NCBI RefSeq assembly: GCF_000429165.1
Contig: NZ_AUBI01000001.1
Location: forward strand, 496,001 to 560,000
DNA: 64,000 nt
Direction of reading: 5' to 3'
Source: Acetobacter nitrogenifigens DSM 23921 = NBRC 105050
GTDB taxonomy: Bacteria; Pseudomonadota; Alphaproteobacteria; Acetobacterales; Acetobacteraceae
The translations under genes were made by a program, and so were the position numbers. Shown here in pieces: positions 10,939 to 18,946 of this stretch; position 1 is the stretch's first letter; each line of letters starts with the position of its first letter. A model generated the notes under the pieces. It was not told the origin of the DNA and searched no databases. It was given only the letters and a program-made list of their open reading frames with translations.

Positions 10939-13587
10939 ATGCCTACGACAAACGACATCCGCGCCGCGTTCCTCGATTATTTCGCGTCGCAGGGGCACCA
11001 GATCGTGCCGTCCTCCCCCCTCGTTCCCCGCAACGATCCGACGCTGTTGTTCACCAACGCCGGAATGGTGCAGTTCAAGAACGTGTTCACAGGGCAGGAA
11101 ACGCGCCCCTACAACCGGGCCACAACGGCGCAGAAAGTCGTCCGCGCAGGCGGCAAGCACAACGACCTCGACAACGTCGGCTATACCGCGCGCCATCACA
11201 CGTTCTTCGAGATGATGGGCAACTTCTCGTTCGGTGATTACTTCAAACCGCTCGCCATCGAACTAGCGTGGAATCTGATCACGCGTGATTTCGGGCTGCC
11301 GAAAGACAAGCTGCTGGTCACCGTCTACTCGGAAGACGAAGATGCTGCGGCGCTGTGGCGCAAGATCGCCGGTCTTTCTGACGACCGCATCATCCGCATC
11401 CCGACCTCCGACAATTTCTGGCGCATGGGCGACGTCGGCCCCTGCGGCCCCTGCTCCGAGATCTTTTACGACCACGGCCCCGACGTTCCAGGCGGCCCGC
11501 CGGGCTCGCCCGATGAGGACGGAGACCGTTTCGTCGAGATCTGGAACCTCGTGTTCATGCAGTTCTTCGAGGATCCGCCAGGCACGCGAACGCCGCTGCC
11601 ACGTCCGTCGATCGACACCGGCATGGGCCTTGAACGCTTCGCCGCGATCATGCAGGGCAAGCGCGACAATTACGACACCGATACGCTGCGGGCGCTGATC
11701 CTCGCCTCCGCCGACGCGACCGGACAGGACCCGGACGGACAGTTCAAGTCCAGCCATCGCGTGATCGCCGATCACCTGCGCTCAACCGCGTTCCTGATCG
11801 CCGACGGCGTCCTGCCCGCAAAAGACGGGCGTGGCTACGTGCTACGCCGCATCATGCGCCGCGCCATGCGGCACCTGCACATGATGGGCACGACCGATCC
11901 GGTCTTCTACAAGCTGCTGCCGGCTTTGATCCGCCAGATGGGCGCAGCCTACCCCGAACTGGGACAGGCCGAGGCGCTGATCCGCGAAACGATGCTGGGT
12001 GAAGAAGAGCGCTTCAAGGCAATGCTTGGACGCGGCCTCGGCCTGCTCGGCGAAGAAACCGACAAGCTGCCATCGGGCGGCGCGTTGCCCGGCGACGTGG
12101 CGTTCAAGCTGTACGACACATTCGGCTTCCCGCTCGACCTGACACAGGACGCGCTCCGTTCCAGCGGCCACACGGTAGACGTCGACGGCTTCGACGCCGC
12201 GATGAAGCAACAGCGTGAGCGCGCCCGCGCCGCGTGGACCGGCTCCGGCGACACCGCGACGGAGACCGTCTGGTTCGAAGCACGCGACCGTTTCGGCGCG
12301 AGCGAGTTCCTTGGCTACAGCACCGAAGTCGCGGACGGCGAGATTCAGGCGATCGCGCTCGGCGACCGTCTGGTCGAGAGCGCAGGTCCCGGCGAGCAGG
12401 TCGCCATCCTGCTCAACCAGACCCCGTTCTACGGCGAAAGCGGCGGACAGGTCGGCGACACGGGCGAGATCACCGCGCCGGGTGTTCGCATCGCCGTCAC
12501 TGACACGCAGAAGAAGCTCGGCGATCTGCTAGTGCATTACGGCACGGTCACCGAAGGAACCGTGAAACCCGGCCTCGCCATCCACGCCGTCGTCGACCAC
12601 ACGCGACGCAGCGCCATCCGCGCCCACCACTCCGCGACACATCTTCTGCACGAAGCGCTGCGTCGGCGTCTGGGCGAGCACGTCACGCAGAAGGGCAGCC
12701 TGAACGCGCCGGACCGTCTGCGCTTCGACGTCAGCCAGCCGCGCCCGATCACGCGCGAGGAACTGGCCGAGGTCGAGGCCGAGGTGAACGCCCGCATCCG
12801 TGAAAACACGGCGGTGACGACGCGCATCATGACGCCGGAGCAGGCCGTCGCCGAAGGCGCCATGGCCCTGTTCGGCGAGAAATATGGCGACGAGGTCCGC
12901 GTCGTCTCCATGGGCGCCTCCGACGACAAGTCCGGCTGGTCCGTGGAACTGTGCGGCGGCACCCACGTCGCACGCACCGGCGATATCGGCCTGTTCCGCA
13001 TTTCCTCGGAAAGCGGCGTGTCGGCGGGCGTCCGTCGTATCGAAGCCCTCGCCGGTCCCGCCGCCGAAGCCGCCGCCAACCTGAACGATGAGCGGCTGTT
13101 CCAGATCGCCGCCATGCTGCGCGTTAACGCCGCAGAAGCGCCGGAGCGGCTGGCGACGATCCTCGAAGAGCGCAAGGCGATGGAAAAACGCATCGCCGAT
13201 CTCCAGCGCAAGCTCGCAGCGGGAGGAACCGAAGCCGCAGGCGTGGAGACCATCGCTGGCGTTCCGTTTGCAGGCCGCAACATCGGCGACACGCCCGCAC
13301 GTGAACTGAAGGGGTTGGCCGAGACCATCGGCAAGCAGATCGGCGTGGGCGTGGTGGCGCTTGTTTCCACCGCCGACGGCAAGGGAACCGTAGTGGTGTC
13401 CGTGAACCCGGAACTGCCGGAAGCCATCGACGCAGTGGCCCTCGTCCGCGCCGCAAGCGCCGCGCTGGGCGGCAAGGGCGGCGGCGGACGGCGCGACATG
13501 GCGCAGGCTGGCGGACCGGACGTTGGGGCCGCCGATGCGGCGCTGGACGCGGTGCGGGCGGGCATTGTTGTTGCGGCGCAGGGGTAG
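10939..13587 (+). CDS. alaS: Alanine-tRNA ligase
   Basis: An 882-residue class II synthetase of normal length. It has the N-terminal catalytic core ([30 protein letters not shown], and GMGLERFA as motif 3). The editing domain carries the zinc-site residues HHSATHLLH and CGGTH that hydrolyse mischarged Ser/Gly-tRNA(Ala). The C-terminal C-Ala domain has the glycine-rich [17 protein letters not shown]. It charges tRNA(Ala) in the cytoplasm. A strong terminator follows, and the lower-GC insert begins directly after that terminator. Confidence 0.97.
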
Positions 13588-13628
13588 GCTGATTGCTGAG
13601 TGATGCCGCAGCGCTGAAAACGGAAAAG

Positions 13629-13653
13629 CCCCTCGTGTGAACGGGGGGTTTTT
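13629..13653 (+). terminator. Rho-independent terminator of alaS
   Basis: An 8-base stem (CCCCTCGT with ACGGGGGG, one G-U pair) with loop GTGA is followed by five T residues, about 40 bases after the alaS stop. Confidence 0.85.
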
Positions 13654-14116
13654 CGTATGTGGTTATTTTTGCGCGACTATGACCGCTTTCGCCCTCATCG
13701 CAGACATTCAAACGGTTGTGACAGGAGTCCGAAAGCCGACATTCGTTAGGTGAGTCGCATAGACCCAGTTTGGAGACGAGTGGTCGCTTGCTGCGCGTCA
13801 TCTATTATCACCTGAGGTTGTGACGGCCGATCAGGACTCGGCTGCACCACTGCAACATCGCCTGTCCGCACAGTAACCTTGGCGACCGATTCCGCTTCGC
13901 CCCACCTATATCAAGGCAATGGCGACGGATACAAAAGTGTACCAACAATTAAGCTGGAGACCCACAAGAACCGATCGTTTGCGTCAGTCATTATCACATT
14001 TATTAAATTCCGTATAAAACGCGTATATAAGTTCATAAAACGGTGATATAATTACTCTAACCATGAGGGGTCTATCTCTAGTGCGCTCCTCCCCAATGTA
14101 ATATCGGAGATGACCA
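13654..14116. other. Gene-free left flank of the accessory insert
   Basis: No convincing gene on either strand. The stretch becomes AT-rich after about 13985, with a candidate -10 box TATAAT at 14047-14052 that could drive the Mrr-like gene; no good -35 is seen. A GGAG at 14106-14109 is the ribosome binding site of the next gene. No integrase, tRNA or clear attachment repeat is present. Confidence 0.5.
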
Positions 14117-14686
14117 TTGACCAGACGAAAGACTGCCAAGGACTTTGACCCTCAAAACGCTGACATGGAGGTAATAGCTCAGGATGTGGCTCGCACAATG
14201 AACCCCAATCTCGAACAAATTCGGGGTCCGAGCAATGACGCCGGAGATGACGGATTATTCCGAGACACGAAAACGGGCCGCCTCCTTACAGTAGAATCTA
14301 AATTCGTGCGGCAGCAGAACAATATCTCTAAAGGTGCCGTCGTGAACTTAGACGAGGCAGGAGCCCGGAACGGAGAGATGTACGGGGCAGAGTCTGATGG
14401 TTTACTTGTTACAACGTCGGGAGATACGGGAAGAGGCGCCAAACAAGCGGTAAGACAGGCGGCAAGCGAAGGCCGGAAAATCGAGATCGTTGGCTTCACA
14501 CAACTTCAGAATATCGCCCGAAACCCCGAAACTGACCCAGACCTTGCCCAGCGTATCGAAGCCGCGCTGAAAAAAAAGGCCCGTCGTGTCACCTCTCAAA
14601 ATGGAGACGTACTAAATGGCAGCCGAGTTATAACACCTACTCCACGATCCCTTGTCGCCGCGACAAGTGGCCAGACACTACTCTAA
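14117..14686 (+). CDS. Mrr-like restriction endonuclease-fold protein
   Basis: A 189-residue protein that resembles the catalytic domain of Mrr-type nucleases. It has a PD-(D/E)xK pattern with D45 (in DAGDDGLF), then E60-S61-K62 at the end of a strand (LLTVESKF). The typical Mrr C-terminal half follows: AESDGLLVTTSGDTGRGAKQ, then KIEIVGFTQL. Mrr-family enzymes cut modified or foreign DNA. The start is a TTG at 14117 supported by GGAG seven bases upstream; an ATG at 14110 is in another frame. No separate DNA-binding domain is visible, and the last 45 residues are polar. Base composition is lower in GC than the flanks. It faces the ATPase/HNH operon tail to tail. Fold assignment is by motif reading only. 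Confidence 0.6.
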   Translation: MTRRKTAKDFDPQNADMEVIAQDVARTMNPNLEQIRGPSNDAGDDGLFRDTKTGRLLTVESKFVRQQNNISKGAVVNLDEAGARNGEMYGAESDGLLVTTSGDTGRGAKQAVRQAASEGRKIEIVGFTQLQNIARNPETDPDLAQRIEAALKKKARRVTSQNGDVLNGSRVITPTPRSLVAATSGQTLL

Positions 14687-14695
14687 CAGGTTGTT

Positions 14696-14739
14696 AAAAA
14701 AGCCATTGGAACGGCGCTGAAGGTTTCTTCATCGCCGTT
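14696..14739 (-). terminator. Terminator-like hairpin of the HNH operon
   Basis: Read on the minus strand, an AACGGCG/CGCCGTT stem (14710-14716 with 14733-14739) with an inner GAAG/CTTC pairing is followed nine bases later by six T residues. It lies 17 bases after the HNH gene and between two convergent genes. Confidence 0.6.
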
Positions 14740-14756
14740 GTGTTATTCGAAATCGA

Positions 14757-15611
14757 TCATCTACGTTTTGGATTTTTGAAATAAGCGTCGGGCATCTTGC
14801 AGAATTGCGAGCAGAGCATTAACCCCCGCAAGAACGCAGCGCGCCAGTCATTTAACCCAAAATCCCTAGCCCACTGTTCGGATACAGTTTTGAGATAGGC
14901 GCAACGCAACTTAGCCGCATCTTTCCCTGTAAAGCCGAGTAGAGCGACTTTTTGGCTAAATAAAAAATTATTTATTGGTGCCGCGTAACGCGTATTCAGT
15001 TCGAGTTTTTCGAATTGATAGCGAAGCCGTTCTACAGTTTGTGAGGACAGTGTCGGGTGCGAAATACTAAAGATCACGCGTAGCGTTCCTCGAGTATAGC
15101 TCACTTTTGCATGTAAAAAAGGCTCATCGTTCCAATGATCCGGAAGATTTTCATAATAAGCGTGAATGAAACCTTTGTTTCCTTTAGGGGCAGCCGTACC
15201 CTTTTTCCTATTGCAAGGCTGGCATGCTGGAATAAGGTTGCGCGGATAGATTGCTAATGCCTTGTACTTTGAGCGTGGGAGATAATGATCAAGCGTGGTT
15301 GGGTCGCCATAACCACATAAGGGACATTCTGAGGCACCCGTCAGAAGGCGTCCACGCAGCTTTTCAAGTCGACCACCAATTTGAATCTGACTATAACAAT
15401 CATGTAGAGTTTGCTCACAGCCTTTGAGAACCGCAGGCTTCAGGCCGCTGATAGGCTGACCTTGCTGGGTTTCATAGAGGGCATAAAGATCCTTTATGGC
15501 GATCCACTCTGCGTTACTTAAGGTGTATATGGGCGGCGCGGTTTTGCGGGATAGCGCTGTTCGCACTTGCGTGCGTGCCATACGCACAGCTGGAGGATCA
15601 AGAGTCCACAT
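14757..15611 (-). CDS. HNH endonuclease, PtuB-like partner of an AAA ATPase
   Basis: A 284-residue protein with an HNH nuclease core at residues 96-138. A zinc-binding CPLC (C96, C99) is followed by LDHYLPRSKY with catalytic H109, NLIPAC with N125, and CQPCNRKKG (C130, C133, N134). About 95 residues precede the core and 145 follow it, without another recognisable domain. The gene starts three bases after the ATPase stop on the same strand, so the two are almost certainly translated from one mRNA. An ATPase plus a small HNH protein in this order is the layout of Septu (PtuA-PtuB) phage-defence systems; PtuB cleaves DNA when released by PtuA. Low GC fits acquired DNA. Confidence 0.75.
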   Translation of the reverse strand: MWTLDPPAVRMARTQVRTALSRKTAPPIYTLSNAEWIAIKDLYALYETQQGQPISGLKPAVLKGCEQTLHDCYSQIQIGGRLEKLRGRLLTGASECPLCGYGDPTTLDHYLPRSKYKALAIYPRNLIPACQPCNRKKGTAAPKGNKGFIHAYYENLPDHWNDEPFLHAKVSYTRGTLRVIFSISHPTLSSQTVERLRYQFEKLELNTRYAAPINNFLFSQKVALLGFTGKDAAKLRCAYLKTVSEQWARDFGLNDWRAAFLRGLMLCSQFCKMPDAYFKNPKRR

Positions 15612-15614
15612 TGA

Positions 15615-17285
15615 TTATCCTTCGTCTCCTGCCTGCGCATCCCGGTCTGCCATTCGGCTCATAACATAAGCACGAGCCTGAAAGCTGAGACCCCGCTCGA
15701 AAAGATCTTCGATCTGCTGTTGGGACATGCCGGCGTTAACAAGTTCGTCAAGGACGTTGTGATAATCGGTAACATTAGTATTCAAACCGAATACAGCGTT
15801 AGTAATCTCACCAATGCTTTCACCATAAGTTTCAATACGAGGTCGCAATATAGTCGTGATTGAGCCCGATCGCCGCACTATGGCCACATGTTGTCCTAGA
15901 GTTTCTTGCGCCACCACTGGAGAATGAGTTGCAACGATGGCAAAAGCATCGTGCGCGGCGAGAATGGTCCGAGTTGCATGCATCAGTGCTGCCAGCAATG
16001 GTGGATGCAGATGACTTTCGGGCTCATCCATAAGGATAAGACTCTTGGGTTCGACATAAGCAATAAGAGCTGCAATCAAATGAAGAACAATCTTATGACC
16101 AGTGCTTCGGGTAAGGAACATAGCCCGGGGATTGGAGGTAAGAAAAGCTGCCGGCCTCTCGTCGGCAAAATCTGCAAAAGAGGCGTCACTGAGCAGAATT
16201 TCTAATATGTCCTGCAAGAGCGGCATGCGTGCATGCTTTTTGATCCGTCGAATCATGACGTCAAATTCATCGGCAAGAGTATCAGCTGATTTAAGATAAG
16301 TTTTTACTTGTCGATCTCGGCCGAAAGCGCCAAGTTCTTCATTTACGCTGCTGAAACGCTTGTTTACTTTATCAATGGTCTCGTCAAGAAGTTCACTTAG
16401 CTCGCGACCAATATCTCGCAGACCGCAATAAACATAACGGCCAGCCCCAACCGATAAGTCACTAGCAATTTGTTGTTTGTCGGCACGTGAAATACCAGGG
16501 ACATGAAAAGTATCAAATGCGCTATACGAAACTGCAATAATACGGGTGAAACCTATTCCCTTAGGTTCGATTTTTCCTAGTCTTCGGATTGACTTCCTAG
16601 AACGCTCCATTGGCGAGGCATGCAGTACTCGCGCAAGTCTTGCTAGCAAAGTGCTCTTTCCAGATCCGTTTTCGCCGGTTATCACTGCAATCCTCTCAGG
16701 TAATCGCGTATTAAGTCGGCGCTTTCCTGCTGTATCTTCAGATGAGTTGTTGCCAGCAAAGGAAATTTTTAGTGACTTATTCCAATTGCGGACCCTAAAA
16801 GACATTTCAATGCCAAGCGACGCAAGGGCACTGTAATCACGTTCTACCAGAACCATCGCAACTGAACGATATTCGGCTATACTGCTTGAATCGCGCATGA
16901 TCGAGGTATTCCAACCTCGTTCATTAACAAACTTCTCGGCATGATCGGGATATTTCAATGCGTCACGGAGTCCAAGTAGGACCGCATTCCGATCCTCGGC
17001 TGAAAGCTGAGCAAGCCTCTCATAATAATCGAGAGACTGACCAAGAGAGCAGTAAGCCTCGGAGAGAGGCTCAAGCGTCCCTACAGGAAGTACGTCGCTA
17101 GAACCCTCAACTTGTCCACGTTTCAGAATTTTTACGTTTCCGATAAACCCTTCGAATTCGTTTCCAAAATAATAGACATGGTATTGTGTGCGATATGAAA
17201 AGTCGTTCCAAAGATCCTGTTCAAGAACCAAGCCCTTATATCCATGGGGCACGCCACGCTGTGGCGGAATCACTGTTATTTTCAT
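15615..17285 (-). CDS. AAA/ABC-type ATPase, PtuA-like, with N-terminal extension
   Basis: A 556-residue ATPase. Walker A GENGSGKST is at 204-212, an ABC-signature-like STGHK at 394-398, Walker B SLILMDEPESHLHP at about 415-428, and the switch histidine in ATHSP at 454. This is the OLD/RecF-like ABC ATPase arrangement used by PtuA and other defence ATPases; no TOPRIM domain follows, so it is not an OLD nuclease or GajA. The 200 residues before Walker A are unusual, since such ATPases mostly have Walker A close to the N-terminus; the extension could sense a phage component. The C-terminal 75 residues are helical and polar. The HNH gene follows directly. There is no reverse transcriptase nearby, so it is not a retron. 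Confidence 0.75.
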   Translation of the reverse strand: MKITVIPPQRGVPHGYKGLVLEQDLWNDFSYRTQYHVYYFGNEFEGFIGNVKILKRGQVEGSSDVLPVGTLEPLSEAYCSLGQSLDYYERLAQLSAEDRNAVLLGLRDALKYPDHAEKFVNERGWNTSIMRDSSSIAEYRSVAMVLVERDYSALASLGIEMSFRVRNWNKSLKISFAGNNSSEDTAGKRRLNTRLPERIAVITGENGSGKSTLLARLARVLHASPMERSRKSIRRLGKIEPKGIGFTRIIAVSYSAFDTFHVPGISRADKQQIASDLSVGAGRYVYCGLRDIGRELSELLDETIDKVNKRFSSVNEELGAFGRDRQVKTYLKSADTLADEFDVMIRRIKKHARMPLLQDILEILLSDASFADFADERPAAFLTSNPRAMFLTRSTGHKIVLHLIAALIAYVEPKSLILMDEPESHLHPPLLAALMHATRTILAAHDAFAIVATHSPVVAQETLGQHVAIVRRSGSITTILRPRIETYGESIGEITNAVFGLNTNVTDYHNVLDELVNAGMSQQQIEDLFERGLSFQARAYVMSRMADRDAQAGDEG

Positions 17286-17587
17286 GCCAAAGCTCTTATG
17301 ATTCTACTCTTTGAAATCCATCTTACACGTTGATGGATATGTTGGTTGATCTAAATTGTCGGGGCTATTCTTCCATAAATTCCCTTGCATATGAGCATTT
17401 TATATCTTCAATAATTATTATAATGTTTCCTATAGTGGGGCACTTCAAAAGCTATCTTTAGTCAGATTCAATGTCCGATAATTTAAATTTTTATGCCAAA
17501 CAGCCGACCTTCCGTTTCCCCTCCCAAAGTAGTCACAACACACGACGTCTTACGTCCTTTTCTTCAAAAAAGACGCAATCTCAGCTC
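17286..17587. other. Promoter region of the ATPase-HNH operon; right flank of the insert
   Basis: A very AT-rich stretch with no convincing gene. On the minus strand a TATAAT (17417-17422) is a possible -10 for the operon, with only a weak -35 further upstream. A short plus-strand frame starting at 17471 runs into the amidohydrolase gene and lacks the codon bias of real genes here. GC rises sharply at about 17590, marking the return to core chromosome. Confidence 0.45.
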
Positions 17588-18946
17588 TCACCCGTTAATC
17601 AAATCCAGAGCAAGCCGATTATGGTCCGCCACCAGCCTACGCTCATCCGTGACCAGTAAAACCCCGCCACGCACCAGCACCCGACCATTCACCATCGTCA
17701 GCGCCGCACGCACCGGGGAGCAGAACAGCAACGCCGCAAGCGGATCGCACTGCGCCCCCGCGTGCTCGATCCCGGAGATATCGAACGCCGCGAGGTCCGC
17801 CGCCATACCGGGCTCAATCGTCCCGACGTCATCGCGGCCAAGCACCTCCGCCCCTCCCCTCGTCGCGATCTCCAGCACCTCGCGCGCACCCAGCAACGGC
17901 CCGTTCGTCTGATCCAGCACGCGGCCCAGCAGCATCGCCTGCCGCGCCTCGCCCAGCATGTGGCCTCCGTCGTTCGACGCCGAACCATCAACGCCAAGCG
18001 CCACCGGCACGCCTGCCGCACGCATCACGCGCACCGGCGCAATACCCGAGCCCAGACGCATATTCGAGCAGGGGCAATGCGCAACGCCCGTTCGCGTTGC
18101 CGCAAACCGCGAAATGCCGTCCTGATCGAGTTTCACGCAATGCGCGTGCCACACGTCCGCGCCAAGCCAGCCGAGATCTTCGGCGTAATGAGCAGGCGTT
18201 TTTCCGAATTTCTCCAGACTGTAGGAGACGTCGCTGTCATTCTCCGCAAGATGCGTGTGCAGAGTCGTGCCTGTGGCGCGGGCGAGCGACGCCGCGTCGC
18301 GCATCAGCCCCTCACTCACCGAAAACGGCGAGCACGGCGCGACGACGACGCGCCGCATGGAAAAGCGCGAAGCGTCATGCCACCGCTCGATCACGCGTTG
18401 CGTATCGGCCAGAATAGAACGCTCGTCCTCGACCAGCGAGTCCGGAGGCAGGCCCCCGTCGCTTTCGCCGACACTCATGGAGCCGCGCGCGGCATGGAAG
18501 CGCATGCCCATGTCCTCGGCGGCCTCGATCTGGTCATCGAGGCGCGCGCCGTTGGGAAACAGGTAGAGATGATCGCTACTGGTCGTGCAGCCCGACAGCA
18601 GAAGTTCCGCCATTGCTGTGCGTGTAGAGGCCCGGATCATCTCCGGCGTCAGACGCGCCCAGATCGGATACAGCGCACGCAACCAGCCGAACAGCGACAC
18701 GTCCTGCGCCTCCGGCACGGCGCGGGTCAGCGTCTGATACATGTGGTGGTGGGTGTTGATCAGGCCGGGCAGCAGCACGTGCCCGGCGAGATCGATGCGC
18801 TCCGACGCCTCGGGCTCCGGGTCCGTGGCGGCTCCCACTGCCGTAATCTGATTGTCCGTGACCAGAACCCAGCCGCCGGGCAACTCCCGGCGCTGGCCGT
18901 CCATGGTCGCCACATAGGCGTTAGAAAGCAGGACGGTTTTCGTCAC
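17588..18946 (-). CDS. 8-oxoguanine deaminase-like amidohydrolase
   Basis: A 452-residue metal-dependent amidohydrolase of the AtzB/TrzN/8-oxoguanine deaminase group. It shows the metal-binding NTHHHMYQ (H66, H68), HTHLAEN, HAHCVKLD and the aspartate in GVDGSASND. The motif SSDHLYLFPNG and the overall length fit characterised bacterial 8-oxoguanine deaminases, which convert 8-oxoguanine to urate in purine salvage and detoxification. Closely related enzymes dechlorinate triazines or deaminate other purines, so substrate is likely but not proven. Confidence 0.8.
   Translation of the reverse strand: MTKTVLLSNAYVATMDGQRRELPGGWVLVTDNQITAVGAATDPEPEASERIDLAGHVLLPGLINTHHHMYQTLTRAVPEAQDVSLFGWLRALYPIWARLTPEMIRASTRTAMAELLLSGCTTSSDHLYLFPNGARLDDQIEAAEDMGMRFHAARGSMSVGESDGGLPPDSLVEDERSILADTQRVIERWHDASRFSMRRVVVAPCSPFSVSEGLMRDAASLARATGTTLHTHLAENDSDVSYSLEKFGKTPAHYAEDLGWLGADVWHAHCVKLDQDGISRFAATRTGVAHCPCSNMRLGSGIAPVRVMRAAGVPVALGVDGSASNDGGHMLGEARQAMLLGRVLDQTNGPLLGAREVLEIATRGGAEVLGRDDVGTIEPGMAADLAAFDISGIEHAGAQCDPLAALLFCSPVRAALTMVNGRVLVRGGVLLVTDERRLVADHNRLALDLING

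Follow-up and report, generated by a model that had tools for sequence, protein, structure and literature searches.

A predicted Septu-like anti-phage switch in Acetobacter nitrogenifigens: a divergent PDC-M01 ATPase–HNH gene pair related by sequence to lambda Ea59–Ea31

Does an ATPase gene with an HNH nuclease gene directly behind it in Acetobacter nitrogenifigens DSM 23921 = NBRC 105050 represent a new subtype of the Septu (PtuA-PtuB) defence system, or a family that has already been catalogued? The two genes lie in a stretch of 64,000 nucleotides (GCF_000429165.1, NZ_AUBI01000001.1 positions 496,001-560,000), which is called the window here and to which the coordinates refer. The original prediction described an ABC/AAA-type ATPase with Walker A at residue 204 and no TOPRIM domain, followed after three bases by an HNH gene with H109 as an HNH residue. 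The open reading frames, motifs, and Pfam matches agreed with this description. Both reading frames are complete and lie on the minus strand, separated by 3 bases. The ATPase matched AAA_21 (2.3e-15) and AAA_15 (5.1e-08), with no TOPRIM family among the 24 Pfam families listed at E ≤ 1, and the HNH protein matched HNH PF01844 (5.6e-06, residues 96-138), with H109 inside the motif.

The further proposal of a possible new Septu subtype did not stand, since both proteins match the PADLOC candidate system PDC-M01 and the pair is thus not a subtype unseen by catalogues. The ATPase aligned with the PDC-M01A model over its full length (E 2.5e-105, 351 bits, residues 1-550 to model positions 1-507 of 510), the HNH protein matched PDC-M01B (E 1e-40, residues 67-272), and the two genes are adjacent on the same strand. 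No difference in kind from PDC-M01 appeared among the tests, the ATPase scoring below lambda Ea59 (351 vs 667 bits). The pair is a divergent PDC-M01 member, Septu-like in design. According to the part consulted of a Bacillus cereus genome study, PDC-x names denote unpublished candidate systems, and PADLOC gave 41 duplicate pairs in which a protein was called Septu as well as PDC-M01, for which the authors kept Septu (PMC11811056). The locus adds a further copy to a catalogued candidate, and its value is as a bridge to the lambda genes. Our preferred reading, held with moderate confidence, is that this member of the PDC-M01 family (which includes lambda Ea59-Ea31) is a predicted Septu-like anti-phage switch.

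The lambda link emerged from a translated search of phage records, in which the ATPase had matches in 24 records, with a query coverage of 80% or more in 19; among the matches listed, the lambda records aligned as Ea59, at approximately 30% identity and 95% coverage. The gene after ea59 in NC_001416 is ea31 (annotated as an HNH endonuclease); the two overlap at their ends and lie beside the attachment site and int. Ea59 matched PDC-M01A at E 4e-201 (667 bits) and Ea31 matched PDC-M01B at E 6e-113. The alignment of Ea59 with the window ATPase (30% identity) runs from residue 21 to 549 and, beginning there, covers the N-terminal domain, while the alignment of Ea31 with the window HNH protein covers 126 residues in and about the HNH core (29%). 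The lambda and window pairs share gene order, the N-terminal domain, the catalytic residues, and their PADLOC models; they differ in that the ATPase is 30% identical, the lambda pair lies apart from the window in the family tree, and it is phage-borne beside attP. Judged from sequence, lambda Ea59-Ea31 is in the same ATPase-HNH family as the window pair. Lambda ea59-ea31 DNA (L013 3435-5899) was present in 91 of 5,426 complete Escherichia coli genomes, 68 of which carried at least 80% of ea59-ea31. Five of the 20 E. coli genomes listed (H76-H80, including BL21(DE3) and BLR(DE3)) matched the first 870 bases of ea59 only and, since the match ends there, would be without the whole lambda pair.

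In the portion of a CRISPR interference screen that was available, both ea59 and ea31 were nonessential for lambda, and ea59 was annotated as an 'ATP-dependent endonuclease' (PMC10695390). The literature searched, in the parts accessible, gave Ea59 and Ea31 no role beyond annotation and no mention of defence, although bioRxiv and most subscription journals lay outside its scope, so that the lambda link may have been recognised earlier. We consider it an even chance that Ea59-Ea31 and the chromosomal pair represent two lineages of a separate, mostly mobile class of ATPase-HNH immunity ('lambda-type Septu') whose hallmark is an N-terminal sensor domain not described before, and that lambda lysogens would carry in their b region an anti-phage system that has gone unrecognised. 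The link makes a question about the best-studied phage addressable in any E. coli laboratory.

The two-gene unit is strongly conserved. Sixty loci were collected with an ATPase match at E < 1e-20, three of them being the window itself and three repeat contigs, with 53 distinct ATPases in total. With starts chosen mechanically, 59 of the 60 had an HNH gene in the same orientation as the ATPase gene, at a distance between -79 and +11 bases, and the remaining locus ends at a contig edge; counted by distinct ATPase, the HNH gene followed directly in 52 of 53. Residue and co-variation comparisons were made with 52 distinct loci, the window included. The tested catalytic residues of both proteins were intact in all of them (Table 1), and the ATPase and HNH protein distances were correlated (r 0.903, with none of 2,000 permutations equally high), which shows co-inheritance and is not evidence of binding. 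Broader scoring found more relatives than chance would give, 2,243 for the ATPase (E ≤ 0.001, 7,995 candidates scored) and 425 for the HNH protein (1,043 candidates), and a scan of genome contigs reached four relatives. The pair is a real and likely functional defence-type operon, with predicted anti-phage activity.

The long region before the P-loop had been called unusual for PtuA-type ATPases, and the comparison bore this out. In the family, the median position of the Walker A glycine was 201 (52 loci), compared with 33.5 in 24 PtuA-type ATPases, 22 of which had Walker A at 30-90, and a profile of the N-terminal region matched none of the 24. At least 144 of the 155 N-terminal columns were filled in every one of the 52 loci, and 16 columns were 85-100% identical (L21, W26, D28, T33, G49, K52, I53, L74, S80, G82, Y87, Y88, D108, S128, I129, R131). 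AlphaFold2 predicted strands followed by helices, with a per-residue confidence (pLDDT) of 85-95 up to approximately residue 130 and an ABC core from approximately residue 159. Twelve proteins of 119-262 amino acids matched a query of residues 1-158; ten had no Pfam domain, and the twelve were indistinguishable from fragments of the same family. This conserved domain of about 155 residues sets the family apart from PtuA and offers a concrete target for learning what such ATPases sense. Two ATPases on the PtuA side (L100 and L104) carry long N-terminal extensions of another kind, with Walker A at 198 and 279, and the domain profile matches neither.

How close the pair stands to Septu itself was assessed with curated models, profile-profile comparison, and a tree. 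An ABC ATPase and HNH pair on a contig with no reverse transcriptase match has the layout of Septu, and the HNH protein was predicted to resemble PtuB end to end (residues 1-272). The catalogue is divided on the name, because a PADLOC model named PtuA (PtuA1, PDLC00282) also matches the window ATPase over its full length (264 bits; Ea59, 611 bits); the other PADLOC PtuA models reached at most 73 bits among the 25 matches listed. The spacing from H to N is 16 residues in the window protein (H109/N125), as in Septu EcB88 (H75/N91), according to the section of the EcB88 report consulted (PMC13096335). On the other side, the curated PtuA model NF041760 gave 36.1 bits against a cut-off of 500, a strict threshold reached in none of 299 genomes of the phylum, and the HNH protein had no match to the PtuB family TIGR02646 at E ≤ 1. 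In an unrooted ATPase tree, built by a quick search on an alignment that kept the N-terminal columns, a single branch separated the 58 rows of the family from the 24 of PtuA type, with a support of 100 in the approximate likelihood ratio test (SH-aLRT). Whole-model structural matches of the ATPase span residues 151-513, and only weak, generic ATPase-like matches were found among those listed from BFVD. The predicted Septu identity held for the layout, the nuclease fold, and PDLC00282, and failed for the curated PtuA and PtuB models and in the tree, where the ATPase falls outside the PtuA clade. Canonical Septu membership was supported in part and was not adopted.

Among the alternatives, the one that survives best is a true Septu, that is, a PtuA-PtuB pair with an extra N-terminal domain and exactly the Septu mechanism. 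It can appeal to the PDLC00282 match, the PtuB-like fold, and the Septu name kept for the 41 Bacillus cereus pairs, but the curated models, the tree split, and a domain that its profile finds in no PtuA-type ATPase, with Walker A near 204, make it rather unlikely.

A second alternative holds that the pair works for its mobile carriers, for example in phage DNA handling or replicon competition, and not host immunity. Relatives occur on 50 plasmid records (E ≤ 1e-20) and 36 viral contigs besides the 24 phage records, and lambda ea59 sits beside int and attP. However, the lambda genes are nonessential for the phage in the screen cited above, the window copy is on a contig of at least 0.5 Mb between housekeeping genes, none of the three complete genes examined in its island is an integrase, and some relatives are found among defence genes, so that we regard this alternative as improbable. 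That the pair is a non-functional leftover from a mobile island is very improbable: the AT-rich island between housekeeping genes would suit this reading, but both frames are complete and every catalytic residue tested is intact.

The island itself measures about 4 kb and lies between alaS and an amidohydrolase gene. Its G+C content was 0.40-0.57 in 500-base windows from 13500 to 17499, compared with 0.61-0.68 on either side. In one of the 22 same-genus genomes searched (G014), the two flanking genes are adjacent without the island; in the others the flanks lie apart or on separate contigs, or no amidohydrolase gene was found, which is uninformative on the island. The island was likely acquired from elsewhere. 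No close copy of the pair occurred in 36 same-genus genomes, two of which held distant copies, and in wider draws at E ≤ 1e-60, one other genome of 384 and one other of 397 matched.

Taken with family membership, the operon, the intact catalytic residues, the predicted PtuB-like nuclease fold, and this mobile and patchy distribution, the pair is most likely a Septu-like nuclease switch that is sister to PtuAB. For Septu EcB88, Walker and H-N-H mutants were reported to lose immunity, and the variable loop of tRNA-Tyr was cleaved in infected cells (PMC13096335); growth arrest by Retron-Eco7 PtuAB is reported to require both proteins. By analogy, we infer that the nuclease is held and would be freed when a phage infects, the signal likely entering through the N-terminal domain. 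The ATPase would dimerise as other ABC ATPases do, and in its ATP-bound state, with its C-terminal half on the HNH protein, it would keep the nuclease inactive. The N-terminal domain, mostly missing in PtuA, would receive the infection trigger, after which the freed HNH protein may cut nucleic acid, either DNA or host tRNA, and cleavage would stop phage production, probably at a cost to growth. Because PtuAB relatives differ, no single substrate was assigned.

Other known systems were considered and set aside. A retron was ruled out, in line with the original prediction, by the lack of a reverse transcriptase match on the window contig (C1); Rfam likewise gave no match for 13000-18500 at E ≤ 1, in a library that is incomplete for retron RNAs. 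The two RVT_1 matches of the genome (E ≤ 0.001) are on another contig, close together (G000 contig C7 51632-53558). Retron type I-A (Ec78/Eco7, Ec83) has the same two kinds of effector, and its PtuAB entries are the best structural matches; it differs by the reverse transcriptase. OLD and Gabija GajA were rejected, as Pfam gave the ATPase no TOPRIM match at E ≤ 1. WonAB of the Vibrio cholerae WASA-1 prophage, described in the consulted part of its report as a prophage-borne ABC ATPase and nuclease that act by abortive infection (PMC12137116), resembles the pair in its ATPase-nuclease design, but its nuclease is PD-(D/E)xK whereas the window partner is HNH.

Table 1. Features of the ATPase–HNH locus in window coordinates
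Feature	Position	Strand	Evidence
ABC-type ATPase (PDC-M01A / lambda Ea59 family), 556 amino acids	15615..17285	-	PDC-M01A and lambda Ea59 matches
N-terminal domain, ATPase residues 1-155	16821..17285	-	16 conserved columns; filled in 52/52; profile finds 0/24 PtuA-type ATPases
Walker A GENGSGKS, residues 204-211	16653..16676	-	G204, G209, K210 invariant in 52/52
Signature-like STGHK (394-398), Walker B DEPE (420-423), H-loop THSP (453-456) region	15918..16106	-	D420, E421, H454 invariant in 52/52; S394, G396 at 100%
HNH nuclease (PDC-M01B / lambda Ea31 family), 284 amino acids	14757..15611	-	PDC-M01B match; PtuB-like predicted fold, residues 1-272
Cys4 HNH core, residues 96-137	15201..15326	-	C96, C99, D108, H109, N125, C130, C133 invariant in 52/52; also N134, K137
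AT-rich island between alaS and amidohydrolase gene, approximate bounds	13589..17587	.	GC contrast; flanks ~170 bases apart in G014

Eight plasmid loci of the family were collected, seven of them annotated, and selected neighbours of four (L060, L062, L064, L066) were scanned against PADLOC, leaving out L061, L063, and L065. L064 carried IetA, IetS, and a TIR protein, L062 carried MzaB and a ZorD-like helicase, and L060 carried PDC-S06, while the single neighbour protein scanned in L066 had no PADLOC match; toxin-antitoxin genes were annotated alongside in L063. Because the neighbours were chosen partly by annotation, defence company is seen to occur, without a frequency. The same AT-rich island also contains an Mrr_cat-like reading frame of 189 amino acids (14117-14686, plus strand), convergent to the HNH gene, which scored 20.8 bits against a Pfam cut-off of 21. 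It was rejected as a third component, since the reading frames collected at the loci of the pair, the window's own copies aside, included no homologue (E ≤ 1e-3); one plasmid record, from Sphingobium, matched it. In L065 (4314-8375, E. coli plasmid pMY504-2), the family pair follows icd, a prophage insertion site; the record is labelled a plasmid, and the genes around the pair are of chromosomal type.
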